Positions 3,548-34,031 of a DNA stretch of 34,031 nucleotides are shown here, piece after piece. A program made the translations under genes and the position numbers. The DNA lies in IMG/VR virus record IMGVR_UViG_3300028840_003177, positions 1-34,031 of that record; one strand, 5' to 3'. The notes below the pieces were generated by a model. The model was not told where the DNA came from and did not search any database. It was given only the letters and a program-made list of their open reading frames with translations. Numbering within the stretch: the first letter of the stretch is position 1; each line of letters begins with the position of its first letter. This DNA is from a virus.

Positions 3548-3621
3548 CGTGTCCGGACGTGGGTTACAGCGTGACGCATCGATGACGATTGGCGTGACCG
3601 CACGTGCGTTGGTGGCGTGAC
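3548..3621 (-). repeat. 23-bp phased repeat array A
   Basis: CGTGAC (GTCACG on the minus strand) begins at 3570, 3593 and 3616, exactly 23 bp apart, with a degenerate fourth head (CGTGTC) near 3548. The 17-bp interiors differ. It fills the gap between the C5-methylase stop (3650) and the start of the gene at 3439. Confidence 0.85.
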
Positions 3622-3649
3622 CCCCACGCCTCCAGGAAGCGTCGCCGGA

Positions 3650-4465
3650 TCAGGCGACGGAAGATCTCCGCCGGGCACGCTCGGCCCGCTTGCGACAAGC
3701 GGCCGAGTCGTAACGCTTTTTCGTCGAATAGAGGGGTCGGCCACAGCCACAACGGCAGAGGGGGCGAGGGGCGAGGGGCGCGGGGCGAGAAATCGGCGTG
3801 TGGGCGTGACCGGATGGCAACAAACCGCGTGACGCCAAAACCGCCCGGGCAACCACGCGGCCCATCGCGATCGGCACACCGTTGCCAACGGCTCGGATCT
3901 TTTCGGTGGCCAGAAAACCGGGCAAATCAAAATCATCCGGCAGACCTTGAAGCCGGCAGACTTCGCGAAAGGTGCGACCGTCGCAGGCCATCGCGGCCGG
4001 CTCGGCTCCCGGTTGCGGCCGCCCCTTGGGGATGTCGAGCGGCAAACCACCTTTGGCCCCAAATTGAAAATGGCGCAGTCGCGAGACGGGACAATACCAA
4101 GACTGATCGACGTCGATCCGCTGGCGGACCGGATACCGCTCGGCCAGGCCCGGGCAAAGGTCGACGACGTTGGGGGCGCGAGGCACGTTTTCCAACAACC
4201 ACCAATCGGGATCGGCCGCCAGCACCACGCGGCCAAACTGAGCCATCAGCCGCCGCCCTTCGCCGGTCGGCTCCGCGCGGCGAGCCGCCGAAAAGTCTTG
4301 GCAGGGCGAGCCGCCGATCACGCCATCGAATCGGCCGGCAGGCGGGCGGGCGTTTTCGACGCGCCCGCCCCACAGCAGGTCGGGGCCGCGGGCCACGCAA
4401 AATCCTTCGAGCTCGAAAGCGAGATCAAAGAGACCGATGCCGGGGAACAATGAATAAACCAACAT
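3650..4465 (-). CDS. C5-cytosine DNA methyltransferase with C-terminal zinc finger
   Basis: 271 residues from ATG 4465. It transfers a methyl group from AdoMet to cytosine C5 in DNA. Motif I is SLFPGIGLFDLAF (5-17), motif IV GGSPCQDFS with catalytic Cys55, motif VI ENVP (92-95), a motif VIII-like RLRHFQFG (129-136) and motif X AVGNGVP (192-198). The target-recognition region is short. Residues about 237-260 add a Cys-rich finger (CRCGCGRP, then ACRKRAERARRR), joined by a Pro/His linker encoded by repeat DNA. No restriction enzyme is nearby, so it is an orphan phage methylase, probably protecting the genome from host restriction. The start abuts array C. Confidence 0.92.
   Translation of the reverse strand: MLVYSLFPGIGLFDLAFELEGFCVARGPDLLWGGRVENARPPAGRFDGVIGGSPCQDFSAARRAEPTGEGRRLMAQFGRVVLAADPDWWLLENVPRAPNVVDLCPGLAERYPVRQRIDVDQSWYCPVSRLRHFQFGAKGGLPLDIPKGRPQPGAEPAAMACDGRTFREVCRLQGLPDDFDLPGFLATEKIRAVGNGVPIAMGRVVARAVLASRGLLPSGHAHTPISRPAPLAPRPLCRCGCGRPLYSTKKRYDSAACRKRAERARRRSSVA
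3758..3790. repeat. GAGGGGCG-type G-rich tract inside methylase gene
   Basis: Tandem GAGGGGC words (three near-copies). They encode the proline-rich linker between the methylase domain and its C-terminal zinc finger, and lie next to the array B heads. Confidence 0.6.
3805..3833 (-). repeat. 23-bp phased repeat pair B
   Basis: CGTGAC at 3805-3810 and 3828-3833, 23 bp apart, inside the part of the C5-methylase gene that encodes the linker before the zinc finger. Confidence 0.7.
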
Positions 4466-4482
4466 GCCGTCAGGTTACGCCG

Positions 4483-4667
4483 GTCACGGCAGCTCGTCAA
4501 GACGGGTCACGGGGAGGCTTGAGGGGTGAGACTTGAGGGATGAGGAAAAAAAGTCACGGCGAGTGCTCCGCCGCAACATCCCGCGACCGTGCCGGCCGCG
4601 TCGCTGAAAGTTGCGGCCGGTGATGGGCTTGACAACGCCGCTGAATTCGGCGACGATTGCCGGCGGG
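4483..4667 (+). repeat. 23-bp phased repeat array C (partly degenerate)
   Basis: GTCACG at 4483 and 4506 (23 bp apart) and at 4553 (47 bp on, two periods plus one base). After 4553, successive 23-bp steps starting at 4576, 4599, 4622 and 4645 lose the GTCACG head but keep a GCCGGC-like word near positions 15-20 of each unit. It occupies most of the gap between the divergently oriented C5-methylase and D12-methylase genes. Confidence 0.65.
4511..4548. repeat. TGAGG-type degenerate G-rich tract
   Basis: Words GGCTTGAGG, GGTGAGA, CTTGAGGGA and TGAGG in series, within array C. Resembles the tracts at 1668 and 5464. Confidence 0.6.
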
Positions 4668-4768
4668 AAAGTTGGAGCGGGCCGTCTGGCAATTGCGCGA
4701 CATCCTCAACGACTACTTCGAACACAACTGCGATGCCGAACTGACGGTCAAAAAATCGCGGATTCACA

Positions 4769-5473
4769 ATGAGCTATCCAGGCGGCAAAGCGGCACCGGG
4801 TGTGTATCAGCGAATCATCAACCAGATTCCGCCCCATCAGACTTTCATCGAGCCGTTTGCCGGCGACGCCGCCGTTTCCCGCGCCATCCGGCCCGCCGAT
4901 CGCACGATCCTCGTCGATCTCGATCACGCTCAATTGCGACACCTTGACGCCACGTTCGAGCGACCCGGCCGAGAGCTTCACCTGGCGGACGGAATTCCCT
5001 GGCTCAAACATTTTGCCGGCCTCTTTGCCTTGCACCGACCCAAGTGGGACGATTCCATCGTCGCCTACCTCGACCCGCCCTACCCGATGAAAACTCGCAA
5101 AGGCGGCCGCATCTATCGATACGAAATGACCGACGAGCAACACGACGATCTGTTGAATGTCGCCGCCGACCTGCCTTTTGCTTGCCTGATATCGAGCTAT
5201 CCGAATCAGCGCTACGACGAGACCCTGGCCGACTGGCGGACGATCGATTTTCAAACCACCGACCGCGGCGGCAATCGACGAACCGAGCGGCTTTACATGA
5301 ATTTCCCGGAGCCGGCCGAACTGCACGATTACCGCTACCTGGGCGACGACAAGCGACAGCGGGAACGGATCGCCCGGCGGCGGCGCAATTGGTTGGCCGG
5401 TCTCAAACGGGCGTCTCCCTTGGAACGCCGAGCGATTCTCGACGCCTGTCAGCAAGCGGTCGGGGAGGGATGA
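4769..5473 (+). CDS. D12-class (Dam-like) adenine N6 DNA methyltransferase
   Basis: 234 residues, one of very few rightward genes. It methylates adenine N6 in DNA. PGGK at 4-7 is the D12-class N-terminal signature, motif I is FIEPFAGDAAVS (26-37) and motif IV is DPPY at 102-105. The C-terminus is charged. Length is somewhat short for the family, but all core motifs are there. ATG 4769 lacks a strong Shine-Dalgarno; the upstream in-frame stop excludes a much longer product. Arrays C and D flank it, so gene and repeats may have arrived as one cassette. An orphan methylase with a likely anti-restriction role. Confidence 0.9.
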   Translation: MSYPGGKAAPGVYQRIINQIPPHQTFIEPFAGDAAVSRAIRPADRTILVDLDHAQLRHLDATFERPGRELHLADGIPWLKHFAGLFALHRPKWDDSIVAYLDPPYPMKTRKGGRIYRYEMTDEQHDDLLNVAADLPFACLISSYPNQRYDETLADWRTIDFQTTDRGGNRRTERLYMNFPEPAELHDYRYLGDDKRQRERIARRRRNWLAGLKRASPLERRAILDACQQAVGEG

Positions 5474-5492
5474 GGTTTGAGGCGTGAGGAAG
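5464..5492. repeat. TGAGG-type degenerate G-rich tract
   Basis: GGGATGAGG, TTTGAGG and CGTGAGG in series at the end of the D12-methylase gene; a reverse copy-like stretch (CTCACGCCTCAA) lies at 5621-5632. Confidence 0.6.
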
Positions 5493-5527
5493 CAATAACG
5501 CGATCGCCGGTCGCACGATCCGGCGGC

Positions 5528-5619
5528 CCTGCCAGGCTTTCGGCCGTGACGCCGCTGCGACTTCGATCGTGACCCGCCGGCGGCACTAAACGTGACGGGC
5601 CCGGCGGACGTGCCGTGAC
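5528..5619 (-). repeat. 23-bp phased repeat array D
   Basis: CGTGAC at 5545, 5568, 5591 and 5614: four heads exactly 23 bp apart. Read on the minus strand, several interiors resemble those of array E in the same register: GCCTGGC at positions 14-20, CCGCCGGCGG at 14-23, and GTCACGATCG and GTCACGGCACG at unit starts. It fills the gap between the D12-methylase stop and the late terminator. Confidence 0.88.
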
Positions 5620-17829: not shown

Positions 17830-18226
17830 GTTTCACGGTTACACCACGTGAGGCGAACCGCTCAAGACAGGAAAATCGATTTGAGATTTTCCTGTTTTCC
17901 AGGGAGCGACGCCGAAAAGAGCGGCCGCCGCGGCCAAGCGAGGCGGGATTTGTTACTCAGGGGTAGGGTCTAGCGTGCAAATTCGGTGTCAAAAACAGGG
18001 GTTTTCGCGGTTTCAAGTCACGGTACCGGGCCGCCGATTGCAGCGGCCGGTGCTGACCGAACGTGTCACAGTCACTACGCCGGCGGCGTCACGCTTTTCA
18101 CCTCCAGACCGTCACGGTTTTGTGCCTGGCGAAGTCACGGCACGGTCCGCCGGCGGGTCACGATCGCCGCCGCTGCGACGTCACGGTTGTTGCGATCGAG
18201 GCGTCACGTTTGAAACGCCAGGTGAT
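17830..18226. other. Intergenic region between Zn protein and gpW-like gene
   Basis: About 400 bases, the longest gap in the late operon. It contains array E (18017-18248), the hairpin at 17867-17895, and a TTGACA (minus strand, near 17993) without a convincing -10. No gene seen. Confidence 0.6.
17867..17895. repeat. 11-bp inverted repeat in the gpW leader
   Basis: ACAGGAAAATC (17867-17877) pairs with GATTTTCCTGT (17885-17895) around a 7-base loop, 38 bp upstream of the gpW-like start. On the plus strand it is followed by TTTTCC; on the minus strand there is no long T-run. It could be an mRNA processing or attenuation structure. Confidence 0.5.
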
Positions 18227-18248
18227 TCACGCCTTGGATCCCGCCGCT
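18017..18248 (+). repeat. 23-bp phased repeat array E (largest)
   Basis: Heads GTCACA at 18065, GTCACG at 18088, 18111, 18134, 18157, 18180 and 18203, and TTCACG at 18226: eight units in strict 23-bp register. An extra GTCACG lies at 18017, off by two bases from the phase. The 17-bp interiors differ but tend to carry GCC(T/G)GGC or CCGCCGG at positions 14-20. The last unit overlaps the end of the Zn protein gene and supplies its TGA stop. Confidence 0.92.
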
Positions 18249-18595
18249 GGATCCGGCGGCGTGAGCTGCTGATCGTCGCCGGTCGGACGAAGATACACCT
18301 TGTCGTCGCGGGCTTGCCCGCACTGGAGACAGCGGCATCGCTTCCAGACGATCGTGGTGTAGAGGCCAAACGTCGGGTGGCTGCCGGAGATATTCGCCGT
18401 GCGGATGTTCGTGTAAGCCGATCGGTCGGTACATCCGCACGCTCGGCACTTGCTTATGCCGACCTCGACGGTGGGGCGGGCTTCCGTCTTCGCTCCCTTC
18501 GGCCGACCGCGACGGGCCTGGGACTTTTGCCCTTGTTTGCGTGACGTCTTCTTGGGAGTCGTCTTCTTGGGGGCCGCCTTTTTTCGTGTCGTCAT
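18227..18595 (-). CDS. Zinc-ribbon protein with basic AT-hook-like N-terminus
   Basis: 122 residues; ATG 18595 overlaps the terminase stop (ATGA). Residues 1-40 are Lys/Arg-rich (APKKTTPKKTSRKQGQ, then RRGRPKGAK, an AT-hook-like RGRP). A zinc ribbon follows: CRACGCT near 50 and CRCLQCGQ near 89. Such a layout suits DNA or RNA binding. It is encoded directly after the large terminase, so a packaging-related or moron role is possible. The stop lies in the last unit of array E. Confidence 0.72.
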   Translation of the reverse strand: MTTRKKAAPKKTTPKKTSRKQGQKSQARRGRPKGAKTEARPTVEVGISKCRACGCTDRSAYTNIRTANISGSHPTFGLYTTIVWKRCRCLQCGQARDDKVYLRPTGDDQQLTPPDPAAGSKA

Positions 18596-20658
18596 AGTCG
18601 TTTTGCCTTCCGTGATCGTTTACGTTTGGGTTTCGCCTGACGTTGGTGTTCGGGCAGGATGCAGCCTTCGACGGACGCCGCCACGGCGGACATGACGACG
18701 ACGTCCAAGAGGTGGTTGTCGGGCTTGTTCGGCGGCAGTTTCCACTCGATGACCCGCCGTTCGTTCGCTTCGACGGGAACGGGCCTTTCCGACGTAAGAT
18801 GGTCCGCGATCATGCGATGCCGTGACGGCTTCGCGGCGTACAGCCGCCATGCCCCCGGATCTTCGTCGGGTTGCGCGAGTCGGTTTTGAACGAACGTTTT
18901 CCAGTAGTTCGAATCGTAGGAAACATAGCGAACCGGCTGGCCTCTGTTGACCGCCGGAGATCTCCAGTGATGACCGACGATGTCGCCCTTCTTCTTTTTC
19001 CGGTCGTTGATCTCGCGTGTTGTCGCTCCGATGTATCGGCCGTGACACGGCGTCAGGAGCGGCGCCATCGCGTGATGGTTGCAAATCTCGTAGATGATGT
19101 CCGTCGATTCCTTCCAGTTGGCGTCGATCACCACCCGGTCAACGTGTGCCAAGCCGCCGTCTTCCCGCTGCCACACCTGGCCGGTCAGCATGTCGATTAG
19201 ATCAGTCAGCGAGGCAAACAACCTCGATTCAAGCCGCCCGCTGTATTCGATCCCAATCGTCGGATGCGCTCGGGCAAGCGTAAAGTACGATCGCGACTGT
19301 TCTGGCCAGGTTCCGTAGTCGGTGATGCCAGCCGACATATCCGGCGCGACGCCAACCATTCCCCAGTAAAGCAGGTCTTTTTGCACGTCGATCGCCGCGA
19401 CGAGTTTCGTGGTGGCGTTGGGGATCTGTCGACGAGCGACCGCGTTGACCCGCTTGGCGATCTCCGGAGCCGTGAGAAACTCCTTTTCAATCGCGTGATC
19501 TTTTGGCGGGTCGTTCTGGCACTCACAAGCAAAGGCGTAGGGGTCGGCCAAAAACTTCCGCATCGTCGACTCGAGCGCCGACAGATCCCCCGGCTTGATC
19601 GCGTCGGGCCAATCGACCACCGCGCCGCGGTCCATTTCACGGCGATTGTCGCCGTATAGCTTGTGTGCGTTTGGCGTGTTTTGAAGATCATTCGCTAGGT
19701 CTTCGCGGCGGATTTCGTCGTATTTCTCCCAGAGATCCATTCGATCCGGAAAGCTCTTCAACTGCTGAAATCGTTCGCCGTTCCAGTCGGGATGTTGTTC
19801 CTTGTCAAGCATTCTGGCCGCCAGGTCATCGGGGCGAATGATCGTGCACGGCATCAGCGCGGCTAGGCGCTCCGTTGGCCCCTCCAGTCCGTCGATCGCC
19901 CCTTGAATGATTCGTTCCCGATGTTCCGTTTGAGCTGGACTACTGGCGGATTCGTCGGTTTGTGGATCGTCGATAACCGCCAGCGACGGCCGAATACTCC
20001 GGCCGTCGAGCGTGTTGTGTTTCGCGCCTCGAATGCCGCCCAGCAGGCCGGCGGTGTGGGTCTTCGCACCGGATGCCTGACTGCCGGGGATCGTCGGGAA
20101 CACGATCGATTCAGCGCCAATCGTGATCTTCGTGTGCCGCCCGTGGTGAAGCTGGCCGATGGCGCGGCGTGGTTCGCCATCTAGTTCGCGAATGGGGTAG
20201 CAGATTTCCGGAAAGTCTTCATTCAGGGCATCGTTGAACATGAGTTCCGTGCGAATGTGATCGAGCATTTGTTCGGCAGCGTCTTTGTTCGCGCCGATCA
20301 GCATCACAAAAAAGTGGCGTCCGGTCATCGCCGCCCACATGGCGGCGATTTCGGACCGCGTCGTTTTGCCCCGGGACCGTGGCATCACAAAAGCGAACTT
20401 GCCGCCGTGCTCGATTGCCGACTGAATTTTTTGATCGACGCGGACTTGATCCTGCGACGATGGCAGCGTGAACAAATGGCCGAAATACTCGCGACAAAAA
20501 AACTGGAAGTCGCCGAAGGCGTGACGGCGGCGGGACGGATCGCTGACCGGAGGGATCGATCCAATGTCGCGGGCGACGCGGCTGGCCGCCCGATTGCGCT
20601 GAATGGCGGCCGCCTTAATGCCTTCATACACATGATGCGATTTACGTCGTCTCGACAT
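18592..20658 (-). CDS. terL: Terminase large subunit (GpA-like)
   Basis: 688 residues. ATPase/nuclease motor that packages DNA. Walker A is MPRSRGKTT (92-100), Walker B LAVIDD (225-230), and the nuclease domain begins with a VAAIDVQKD strand in the middle of the protein, followed by VDRVVIDANWKES and a terminal NHLLDVVVMSAVAAS acidic strand. The basic C-terminus ends KPKRKRSRKAKRL. It overlaps the small terminase gene by 17 bp. Confidence 0.93.
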   Translation of the reverse strand: MSRRRKSHHVYEGIKAAAIQRNRAASRVARDIGSIPPVSDPSRRRHAFGDFQFFCREYFGHLFTLPSSQDQVRVDQKIQSAIEHGGKFAFVMPRSRGKTTRSEIAAMWAAMTGRHFFVMLIGANKDAAEQMLDHIRTELMFNDALNEDFPEICYPIRELDGEPRRAIGQLHHGRHTKITIGAESIVFPTIPGSQASGAKTHTAGLLGGIRGAKHNTLDGRSIRPSLAVIDDPQTDESASSPAQTEHRERIIQGAIDGLEGPTERLAALMPCTIIRPDDLAARMLDKEQHPDWNGERFQQLKSFPDRMDLWEKYDEIRREDLANDLQNTPNAHKLYGDNRREMDRGAVVDWPDAIKPGDLSALESTMRKFLADPYAFACECQNDPPKDHAIEKEFLTAPEIAKRVNAVARRQIPNATTKLVAAIDVQKDLLYWGMVGVAPDMSAGITDYGTWPEQSRSYFTLARAHPTIGIEYSGRLESRLFASLTDLIDMLTGQVWQREDGGLAHVDRVVIDANWKESTDIIYEICNHHAMAPLLTPCHGRYIGATTREINDRKKKKGDIVGHHWRSPAVNRGQPVRYVSYDSNYWKTFVQNRLAQPDEDPGAWRLYAAKPSRHRMIADHLTSERPVPVEANERRVIEWKLPPNKPDNHLLDVVVMSAVAASVEGCILPEHQRQAKPKRKRSRKAKRL

Positions 20659-21253
20659 TGATTTTCTCCGCCGCGATTCGCGCGTGTTCTTCGATCGGGT
20701 AATCAGCCGGTGCCAGTTCTAACGGCAGCAAGTGAGCGGCGATCGTTTCGATAGTCTTCAACAAGTCTGCTCGCTCGGCCGTGATTTCGTCCGTTTCACC
20801 AACGGCGTCATTCGGGTACAAATCCAACAGCCGATTCAATTCCTTTTGGCTGGCCAGCGCCGACTTGACGTCGTCTTGGTCCGCCGCGGTCGTGTACAGG
20901 TGATTGATCCGTCGCACGGCTTGCCCGACTTCGCGACGGCGATCGAAGTCGGCGGCGATCGCAATGCGATCGCCAGCCAGGCCAACAAGTGCGGCGGCGT
21001 CGGTTCGCCGAACACCTAGTTCCTTCACGGCCTGTTCGATCGCACTCGCTTCCGAACGGCCCAACACCAAAAACAAAATCAACTCTTCGAGTTCGGTCGG
21101 GTAAGTTTTCGCCAGCTTGGCCGGATCGGGCGTTGCGGGGCGGCGCGTCTTTTTTCGAGTCGCCGTTTTTTTCTTTGCCGGCGATCGTTCCCTGGCAGCC
21201 GCTTTCTTCCTTGCCGGCGACCGCTTCTTGGGCGTCGCTTTCTTCTTTGCCAT
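20642..21253 (-). CDS. terS: Probable terminase small subunit with histone H1-like tail
   Basis: 203 residues. Residues 1-45 are almost only Lys, Ala, Arg, Pro and Ser (KKRSPARKKAAARERSPAKK and similar), like a histone H1 or AlgP tail. The rest is helical: ELEELILFLVLGRSEASAIE, then VKELGVRRTDAAALVG, an HTH-like segment, and a long helix around QAVRRINHLYTTAADQDDVK. Immediate overlap with the large terminase supports a DNA-recognition role in packaging. The H1-like tail is unusual for this subunit. Confidence 0.7.
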   Translation of the reverse strand: MAKKKATPKKRSPARKKAAARERSPAKKKTATRKKTRRPATPDPAKLAKTYPTELEELILFLVLGRSEASAIEQAVKELGVRRTDAAALVGLAGDRIAIAADFDRRREVGQAVRRINHLYTTAADQDDVKSALASQKELNRLLDLYPNDAVGETDEITAERADLLKTIETIAAHLLPLELAPADYPIEEHARIAAEKINVETT

Positions 21254-25868: not shown

Positions 25869-25914
25869 GTCACGGCGGTGACACGATCTCGGTCACGATT
25901 TGGTGTCGGGACGC
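25869..25914 (+). repeat. 23-bp phased repeat pair F
   Basis: GTCACG at 25869 and 25892, 23 bp apart, in the gap before the 333-residue gene. The second head contains the stop codon of the gene at 25893-26195. Confidence 0.65.
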
Positions 25915-29140: not shown

Positions 29141-29376
29141 GTCTTTTCCTCTCCGTGGTTTTTGGGACTCTGCGGTGAACTCTCCGCCTCGCGTTGGAGT
29201 TGTCGCATGCGATTCCGCATCGCCGTCGCGTCGTGCCAGTCGAAACTCAAGTCGGGATTCGCCGCCCAGCGGCCGAGCCGGTCCAAGGCCTCGCAGCGCT
29301 GGCGATCGCCGTACAGCAGGATGTACCGTTCGCCGCCTTTCACGATCGCCAGCACGTTGACCGATCCAGCCTTCAC
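29137..29376 (-). CDS. Hypothetical protein (79 aa)
   Basis: GTG 29376 overlaps the stop of the replication gene (GTGA), with GGAGG seven bases upstream. An N-terminal beta hairpin (VNVLAIVKGGERYILLYGDR) precedes helices (CEALDRLGRWAANP, MRNRMRQLQREAES). Coupled to the replication initiator, so a helper role is possible. Not recognised. Confidence 0.65.
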   Translation of the reverse strand: MKAGSVNVLAIVKGGERYILLYGDRQRCEALDRLGRWAANPDLSFDWHDATAMRNRMRQLQREAESSPQSPKNHGEEKT

Positions 29377-30428
29377 GATGTCGCCTCCACGGGTTGCTGG
29401 TCGTTGGCCGCCAGTGCCGCGATTAACATTTCGCGGGTCAGCGGCGTATCGCCCTTGGCTCGCCAGTAGTCGGCCGCGATCCCGCTCTTGCCCCGCAGGG
29501 TCGCCAACTTCTCAGCGTCGCTCATCGCGTCGATGGCCGGCCCGTAGCGGCGTTCGAGGTCGGCCGCCGTTTGCGTCTCCGCTTGCCGCTGGGCCTCGTC
29601 GGCAAGCCGCCGTTCTTGCTCACGCCGTCGCCGATCCTTTTGCGTGCGAATCAGCCGAAAGTTTTTCGAGGCGTCCGAGGGCGGTGGCCAACCTTGATCG
29701 GGCGATTGCCCCGACCTGGCGTTAGCAAAACGGTGGTAAAGGGCTCCCGACGAAAAGGCGTCGGGGCCGTCACCCGCGTTGGCCGCGTCAAAATGCTCGA
29801 CGATCGCCGCGGCCTCGTCGGGCGAGAGACCGGCCGCCAACGCCGCCTGAGCGGCTTGCCTGGCCATCCCCACCCCCCGCCGACTCAAAGCCGCCTCCAC
29901 CTCCGCCCGGTTAGGTGGGCGGTTCTCTGGGCGGTTCTTGGGAGGTTTAACAGATAGGTCACCATGTCCTATCTCACCGGTCACCATGTCCGGTCTGACC
30001 GGACACCATGTCCTATCTGACCGGACACCATGTCCTATCTGACCGGTCACCATGTCCGCTCTGGGCTCGGGCTGGCGACCATCAAAATCGGCCAGATTCG
30101 ACCAGATGATTTGATAGCTGGCCGTGTACTTCCACCGCTTCACGTCGAGAATCTGGAGCGACTTGGCGGCCTTGATCACGCGGCGGATCTGCCGGGGCGA
30201 CATCGCCAGGTTTTCGGCCAACGTCTCTTGCTTGGGGTACGCTCGGCCATCGTCACCGGAATATCCTTCCAGCGCCTTCAGCAGGGCCACCAGGGCCGCC
30301 CCAGAGACTTTGGCGTCTGCCAACTCGTCAATCGGCCGGCCGTCGTCTCGCGTGAACCTGAGCGACTCCAATAGCCTCAGCCGGCAGCCTCGCTTGGAAA
30401 AGTCGAACTCTGTTTGCGTGTGTTCCAT
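29373..30428 (-). CDS. Replication initiator, O-like, containing the origin
   Basis: 351 residues from ATG 30428, with GGAG eight bases upstream. Residues about 40-110 form a winged helix-turn-helix (GAALVALLKALEGY, KQETLAENLAMSPRQIRRVI, VKRWKYTASYQI), as in phage replication proteins of the lambda O kind. Residues 121-157 are encoded by the five iterons and read as low-complexity repeats (DMVTGQIGHG, RTWCPVRPDMVTGEIGHGD). The C-terminal half is helical and charged, perhaps for loading host helicase. No phage helicase gene is seen. It probably melts the origin and recruits host replication proteins. Confidence 0.85.
   Translation of the reverse strand: MEHTQTEFDFSKRGCRLRLLESLRFTRDDGRPIDELADAKVSGAALVALLKALEGYSGDDGRAYPKQETLAENLAMSPRQIRRVIKAAKSLQILDVKRWKYTASYQIIWSNLADFDGRQPEPRADMVTGQIGHGVRSDRTWCPVRPDMVTGEIGHGDLSVKPPKNRPENRPPNRAEVEAALSRRGVGMARQAAQAALAAGLSPDEAAAIVEHFDAANAGDGPDAFSSGALYHRFANARSGQSPDQGWPPPSDASKNFRLIRTQKDRRRREQERRLADEAQRQAETQTAADLERRYGPAIDAMSDAEKLATLRGKSGIAADYWRAKGDTPLTREMLIAALAANDQQPVEATS
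29957..30066. repeat. ori: Five tandem 22-bp iterons: putative replication origin
   Basis: Units begin at 29957, 29979, 30001, 30023 and 30045. Consensus GG(T/A)CACCATGTCCTATCTGACC; units 3 and 4 are identical. Each unit has GGTCA..TGACC symmetry. Because 22 is not a multiple of 3, the repeats are read in changing frames of the host gene. Lambda ori likewise lies in gene O as tandem iterons, so this is the likely origin and the initiator's binding site. Confidence 0.85.
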
Positions 30429-30467
30429 CGTTAAACTCCGTGCTTCGCCTTCAACTTTTGGCTGGTG
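30426..30467. repeat. 42-bp duplication, copy 2
   Basis: Identical to 21875-21916. Here it spans the final codons and stop of csrA and the Shine-Dalgarno and ATG of the replication gene. Confidence 0.95.
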
Positions 30468-30645
30468 TGGGTGCCGGCTCGTCGGCCGTGTCGAGCAATT
30501 CGTCCCGCAGGATTTTGAAATCGTGCGGTGCCTCGAAACCGACGCTGATTCGATTCCCTTTGACACCACAAACCACCACGCGTACTTTGCCGGCCGGCGT
30601 GAAAATCGTCACGCCCTGATCGGGGGTTCGTCCAAGATTCAGCAT
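30451..30645 (-). CDS. csrA: CsrA-family translational regulator
   Basis: 64 residues from ATG 30645; AAGGA lies upstream at good distance. CsrA is a small RNA-binding dimer that blocks or aids translation by binding GGA motifs. Conserved parts are ML(x)LxR at the start, VVVCGVKGNRISVGFEAPHD, and FKILRDEL with the Arg that matches Arg44 of E. coli CsrA. An extra insertion (FTPAGK) lies in the first hairpin. Its own leader carries GACAAGGAATGT, close to the CsrA consensus, so autoregulation is likely. It is directly upstream of the replication initiator. Confidence 0.88.
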   Translation of the reverse strand: MLNLGRTPDQGVTIFTPAGKVRVVVCGVKGNRISVGFEAPHDFKILRDELLDTADEPAPTPAKS

Positions 30646-33722: not shown

Positions 33723-34031
33723 TCAGCCGGTAAACACCCTCAGCGTGGGTCGTGTCGGCGTCGGCAACAGATCGGCCTGCGACGGCTGGCCGAGTTGGCT
33801 TTGGTCGATGTAGTGGTTGCGGGTCACGTCGATCGACGAGTGCCCCATGAAGCGTCGCACCGCCTCCAAATCGCCCGTCTGCTTGTAAAGATGCGTGGCG
33901 AAAGAGCGGCGGAACTTGTGCCAGAGATCGCGCTTTTCGACATCGCCGATCGTGTCGGCCAAGCCGGCCGCCACGATCGTCTTCTTGAGCGCGTGGTTCA
34001 GCGCCGGCCACTGCCGGCCGCCCTTGTCGAA
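33723..34031 (-). CDS. int: Tyrosine recombinase / phage integrase, C-terminal part
   Basis: This is the other end of the integrase at 1-828; 33888-34031 duplicates codons already present there. It carries the rest of the catalytic signature: HKFRR (His266, Arg269), GHSS (His292) and the nucleophile Tyr302 in RNHY, followed by a short proline-rich tail ending in TGA at 33723-33725. With Arg166 and the beta-hairpin Lys, all expected active-site residues are present, so the joined enzyme looks functional. A frame beginning at 33974 gives a spurious short product; the real protein starts at 828 across the joint. Confidence 0.93.
   Translation of the reverse strand, partial: FDKGGRQWPALNHALKKTIVAAGLADTIGDVEKRDLWHKFRRSFATHLYKQTGDLEAVRRFMGHSSIDVTRNHYIDQSQLGQPSQADLLPTPTRPTLRVFTG
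33888..34031. repeat. Terminal direct repeat, right copy (circle overlap)
   Basis: Exact copy of bases 1-144. It carries the integrase codons that link the C-terminal part of the gene (ending at 33723) with the N-terminal part at 1-828. Confidence 0.93.

Follow-up and report, generated by a model that had tools for sequence, protein, structure and literature searches.

Phage C5 methyltransferases without a target-recognition domain, and GTGAC arrays that may serve as their DNA address tags

The specificity of a DNA methyltransferase is generally attributed to a domain of the protein. Among the closest described systems to the one considered here are the multispecific C5 methyltransferases of Bacillus phages SPR, SP-beta, phi3T, and H2 (cited in PMC8936443), and the homology-directed C5 methylation of fungi (PMC4858203). 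The present locus carries a short C5 methyltransferase gene among clustered GTGAC pentamers. It lies in a virus record of 34,031 bases, analysed whole and called the window below, whose ends are identical over 144 bp (1-144 and 33888-34031), so that the genome is probably complete, and either circular or terminally redundant. The spacing GTGAC-N18-GTGAC occurs 14 times in it, against 0.06 expected from dinucleotide shuffles. GTGAC is here termed the handle, and a C at the tenth base of the unit that it opens, the addressed C. The features are as follows:

3571..3621, plus strand: array A, two addressed sites (ATCGAT, CACGTG) and a terminal handle; GTGAC at 3571, 3594, and 3617
3650..4465, minus strand: short C5 cytosine methyltransferase, 271 aa (PF00145, E=2.5e-18)
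C-terminal end of the 3650..4465 product: Cys4 tail of the C5 enzyme (C237, C239, C241, C257, then RKR)
3806..3833, plus strand: array B, two handles 23 bp apart (GTGAC at 3806 and 3829) within the linker of the C5 ORF, without an addressed C
4483..4510, minus strand: array C, one unit with an addressed C (interrupted palindrome GTCTTGAC) and a terminal handle
4553-4557: lone handle near array C
4769..5473, plus strand: short D12-class adenine methyltransferase, 234 aa (PF02086, E=1.6e-6)
5546..5619, plus strand: array D, three addressed sites (GCTGC, GCCGGC, CCCGG) and a terminal handle; GTGAC at 5546, 5569, 5592, and 5615
18065..18207, minus strand: array E, addressed sites CGATCG, GCAGC, GCCGGC, CCAGG, (TCTGGA), and GCCGGC, and a terminal handle
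18226-18230: degenerate handle GTGAA past array E, addressing CCTGG
25869..25896, minus strand: isolated pair of handles 23 bp apart, without an addressed C

Arrays A, B, and D are as an earlier note on this DNA had described them, its coordinates being those of the C preceding GTGAC; so are the C5 (PF00145) and D12 (PF02086) genes, both real and oppositely oriented, and the large array E, with seven units seen as GTCAC at 18065-18203, that is, on the minus strand. Array C is shorter than had been claimed: two handles (4483 and 4506, minus strand) are in register and make a single 23-bp step, but the handle at 4553 is 47 bases on and out of the 23-bp register, and the proposed degenerate steps to 4667 contain no GTGAC. 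The interior of D does match that of E in register (79% over 53 nt), D being homologous to part of E. TCTGGA in array E is a TCCGGA decayed from C to T. Array B and the pair at 25869/25892 keep the spacing and not the unit rule described below (the bases at the address are T, A, A, and T), and since these are not C, both may be decayed or due to chance. What the note missed was the fixed C ten bases from each GTGAC, with its restriction-site context.

Other features of the window were recorded in passing. A third methylase, a Dam-like adenine methylase (PF05869, 32417-33472), is distant from the arrays. Four to five copies of a 22-bp repeat (GGTCACCATGTCCTATCTGACC) are found at 29957-30057, within an ORF (29373-30569) identified as HTH_36 and as the phrog_270 replication initiator; this probably represents a replication origin embedded in the gene for the initiator, a layout known from lambda O. 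A 36-bp repeat in 2.5 copies (21162-21251) forms the closing part of ORF 20642-21253. Short G-rich heptamer-like repeats (GGGGCGA, CTTGAGGGATGAGG) at 3761-3789, 4514-4544, and 5463-5490 share stretches with arrays B, C, and D. Array E adjoins a small zinc-ribbon gene (18227-18595), and apparently the same gene stands beside an eight-unit array in another contig (L006, near 2300-2440, a 6-kb fragment); no methylase is known near either array.

Viral contigs were scanned for four or three GTGACs at 23 bp, and arrays with divergent interiors were found in phages of 35-68% G+C. Among ~220 loci, every ORF with the motif PCQD[FY]S adjoined such an array; the proteins are a single family, and a search with this family yielded 41 viral loci. 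GTGAC or GTCAC occurs 251 times vs. 84 in the flanks of the methylase loci (38 of the 41 loci), and GTGAC is the top over-represented pentamer around the gene family across unrelated phages, which bears out the proposed association of arrays with the C5 methylase. The only family common to most loci is the methylase (C5 and D12), with D12 homologues adjoining the C5 gene in about 14 loci, a minority. Hosts of the family include tailed phages, inovirus-like phages, a corticovirus (Pseudoalteromonas corticovirus GXT1010), and plasmids, one of them from Methylomonas; it is also found in Kiloniella laminariae contigs. Some members have no recognizable array.

Chance and simple tandem repetition are ruled out as sources of the arrays, by shuffles and by the divergence of unit interiors: interior identity is about 0.26-0.48 in arrays beside the C5 gene family, and a test for iterons or tandem repeats found no near-identical whole units there. 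A scan of the genome collection for five handles returned mostly ordinary 23-bp tandem repeats, which interior identity sets apart. Two other kinds of repeat came up. GTGAC clusters in L018, L022, L131, L152, L158, and similar contigs have an 11/12-bp sub-spacing and do not match the addressed-C rule; theirs is a different kind of repeat. In L346-L347 (genome G034), TAGCTGAT-like words stand at a fixed distance before cores resembling restriction sites, and are perhaps another repeat family.

Units near the methylase genes follow the rule (Y)GTGAC-N4-C. The tenth base is C in 76% of them, compared to 27% for control GTGACs, and a tenth-base C falls within a listed site for 174 of the 278 GTGACs around the genes vs. 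50 of 396 controls (p=1e-42; the loci are not independent, so that p-values throughout are guides only), sites being called against a list of C5 sites of the authors' choosing. At shifted positions, the number with a listed-site C falls to 12-57. A blind search of all 5-mers at all offsets recovered GTGAC at offset 4, and the same search in the inovirus-like clade gave GTTAC at offset 4 (36 vs. 4.9), with the same geometry; the logo of 352 units is roughly AANY-GTGAC-N4-C. The addressed sites are mainly CCGG, CCWGG, TCGA, GCWGC, GGCC, ACGT, AGCT, and GGWCC, all palindromic type II restriction sites; GCGC and CGCG, restriction sites as well, are rare in arrays. With each addressed C inside a type II site, an array amounts to a list of restriction sites, one C marked in each. 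GGCC, CCGG, and GCNGC appear as phage methylase sites in PMC8936443. The lists are no less redundant than chance would make them (101 vs. 104.8). Adenine contexts that might belong to the D12 partner gave no separate signal at the C5 address position: an adenine excess at offset 6 fits the A of TCGA itself, and in the low-GC group offset 3 shows a slight surplus (12 vs. 4.1).

The units come in three arrangements: in tandem at 23/24 bp, as inverted handles 32 bp apart start to start, and head to head around one core. The first two go with subtypes of the enzyme. Proteins with W[YF]xxxSR at motif VIII have tandem arrays, while those with the usual GxxQxR have inverted 32-bp pairs, a split read by eye in the alignment and without exception among the compared loci having either arrangement. 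In 32 of 34 head-to-head pairs (for example GTGAC-TGATCGATGC-GTCAC) the spacer is N8 or N10-N13, and in 29 of these 32 the addressed index (4) is a C whichever strand is read. Spacer lengths and contents correspond: N8 holds AGCT or GGCC; N10 holds TCGA, CCGG, or ACGT; N11 holds CCWGG and GCWGC, addressed at the second base; N12 holds [C]CGG; and N13 holds [C]CWGG. Handle spacing therefore follows from the enclosed site. In tandem arrays a site is carried by 81 of 98 inner handles vs. 9 of 30 last handles (p=1.4e-7), which places each listed site between two handles. Units show no orientation bias (92 vs. 81) and obey the same rule on both strands, and in 77 inverted pairs there is no pairing beyond the 5-bp handles; together these observations point to recognition of double-stranded DNA.

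The enzymes are mostly 245-300 aa long, and all 37 members examined match PF00145, with the catalytic motifs FxG, PCQ, ENV, RxR, and GNxVP present as invariant columns. A profile of the 37 homologues aligns to residues 3-168 and 260-323 of M.HaeIII, and what is missing is the target-recognition domain between motifs VIII and IX (about 9 residues vs. about 92 in M.HaeIII); nor are there tandem target-recognition domains. At the C-terminus is an invariant Cys4 tail with CRKR. The clade using GTTAC has a CRKRxxD tail, with D in place of the R found there in most others (an observation from this single clade).

The arrays depend on this tail. Among held-out loci from a second scan, arrays with at least three addressed sites accompany 7 of 10 tail-bearing members and none of 53 tail-less ones, which also match the family core (p=2e-7; the tail-less count takes in two members from the first set that are truncated or frameshifted). 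Blind discovery in the held-out loci again put GTGAC at offset 4 first (56 vs. 4.8), in the tail-bearing set only. Of individual copies, that of Methylorubrum AM1 has neither tail nor array, and that of the Methylomonas plasmid has both a tail and inverted pairs. About 50 loci (L402-L457) encode phage C5 methyltransferases lacking target-recognition domain, Cys4 tail, and arrays alike. Since such tail-less relatives without a recognition domain are common, the arrays do not explain the loss of that domain.

The explanation judged best, and slightly on the probable side, is that the arrays, read as double-stranded DNA, act as address tags for the neighboring C5 methyltransferase. The handle, YGTGAC or in one clade GTTAC, would be the docking point of the Cys4 tail, from which the catalytic domain would act on the same-strand cytosine ten bases from the handle's first G. 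Each target would be bracketed by two handles, in tandem at 23/24 bp in one subtype or inverted at 32 bp in the other; alternatively, head-to-head handles would flank one palindromic site and so address both strands. Docking by the tail, methylation by this enzyme, and the role of the arrays are inferred; the unit rule, the bracketing, the dependence on the tail, and the co-variation with enzyme subtype and clade can be read from the sequences directly, as can the loss of the recognition domain and the C-to-T decay at the addressed base.

This decay was counted in units one change away from a listed site. At the addressed C there are 16 changes of C to T, with six of G to A at its opposite-strand partner and four other changes; the C>T/G>A share is thus 22 of 26 at the addressed C or partner, vs. 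3 of 24 at other C/G positions (p=5e-7). Deamination of 5-methylcytosine would leave such a footprint, be the methylation the work of phage or of host enzymes, and the decay could stem from host methyltransferases acting on the same sites.

As for function, the most likely role of such tags would be in conflict with host restriction-modification, the array sites being kept and protected by the enzyme; some phages purge the same sites from the rest of the genome, while the array copies are kept. The case for protection is weak, since a phage has no obvious gain from keeping methylated restriction sites. A decoy for restriction enzymes was considered and is disfavored by argument, the host genome already holding far more methylated copies. 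The alternative is that the list directs methylation elsewhere.

This second possibility, with the array as a template list from which the enzyme methylates the listed sites across phage (or host) DNA, we regard as conceivable but rather unlikely. DNA would then play the part that tandem recognition domains play in multispecific phage methylases. The contents of the arrays are the usual sites of multispecific methylases, and the enzyme is missing the domain that would otherwise recognize them. Sites on a list also meet with less avoidance in the genomes that list them (T=0.164, permutation p=0.012), a weak test in that related genomes are not independent and counter-examples exist, for which reasons it was rejected as proof of genome-wide protection. 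In one low-GC group, the sole phage to list ACGT (G032) has about 35 copies of it (70 if each palindrome is scored once per strand) compared to 0-1 in four non-listing relatives. On the other hand, strong avoidance is seen in 39 genome-site pairs, and in 14 of these the avoided site is one that the array lists. In a set of 25 pairs, hand-picked as avoided or purged, 121 copies of the sites are left, and 32 of them occupy addressed positions, which make up about 0.1% of the genome. Both CCWGG copies of G038 are in its array, as are the only GGCC and the only CCGG of G018 (20 kb read), so that protection would have no other copy of these sites to cover in the phage. Within the array the address falls on both strands, which a template would not need, and we know of no physical way for double-stranded DNA to program an enzyme in trans, except for fungal homology-directed C5 methylation. 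Genome-wide protection would make the purging of other copies needless, and the evidence favors array-local action, which is ranked ahead of programming in trans.

The arrays might instead be operators: the methylase would repress its own gene by binding the unmethylated array, and host methylation would alter that binding and so report the host's restriction-modification systems. Arrays are often in the leader regions of methylase genes, each addressed C is a base that host methylases of those sites would be predicted to modify, and the decay fits host methylation on both strands. However, arrays are also found downstream of the gene, inside it, and many kilobases away, and no clear benefit is apparent, making this an improbable reading.

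Transcription of the array and its processing into guide RNAs that direct the methylase is more doubtful still. The bracketing with a terminal handle is CRISPR-like, and terminator hairpins immediately follow the final handle in G049, GXT1010, and Kiloniella, but these hairpins sit between converging genes and may belong to the opposite one. The two unit orientations obey one strand-symmetric rule, and RNA hairpins, including the conserved stem of a structured, C/D-box-like guide RNA, were rejected, extended pairing being absent from the inverted pairs and the window region giving no Rfam match.

The proposal of the earlier note, that arrays are insertion targets or boundary marks of mobile accessory genes, draws on their flanking both methylase genes in the window and is barely credible as a general account: arrays also lie within the methylase reading frame (array B; 24-bp arrays in L233-L239), far from any methylase or other accessory gene (array E; several clusters in G007, G004, G020, and G030), and where no accessory gene was gained, they are absent beside the 53 tail-less relatives, and genes gained or lost with a break at a unit were not observed, the two close relatives found being near-identical to the window over the compared stretches.

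In the full-text literature searched, whose scope took in few subscription papers or preprints, there was no description of a methylase without a recognition domain in combination with address arrays. The preferred reading, that of address tags, would be of interest on several counts. The family is phage-borne and lacks the domain that normally carries specificity, and tags in the DNA, set at a fixed distance, single out one cytosine in each of many different restriction sites, the spacing of the tags depending on the site they enclose. If an array protects only itself, it would represent an unknown layer of phage-restriction conflict; if it acts in trans, the methylase would be a nucleic-acid-programmed modification enzyme, and a phage could alter its modification specificity by editing a few non-coding bases rather than a protein domain. 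Either way, it would be a compact, testable one-protein system.

Compared to M.HaeIII and M.HhaI (PF00145), the array family has the catalytic motifs PCQ, ENV, and GNxVP in common, but the motif VIII-IX stretch is reduced from about 92 to about 9 residues and the Cys4 tail is extra. The Bacillus multispecific enzymes are likewise phage C5 methylases facing many restriction specificities, and the known set was assayed on GGCC, CCGG, and GCNGC, sites that also occur in arrays; their specificities are tandem target-recognition domains, however, whereas the array family has no such domain and its sites are written out as DNA arrays. As in CRISPR, a short constant element alternates with variable spacers and stands at the end of the array, but it is 5-6 bp long, not a near-identical repeat of 21 bp or more, the spacers name generic 4-6 bp restriction sites, both orientations are used, and no cas genes were seen. 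In fungal RIP/MIP (RID/Masc1, PMC4858203), too, the target of a C5 methylase is set by other DNA, with no conventional recognition domain; that system is fungal and works on long repeats without address tags.
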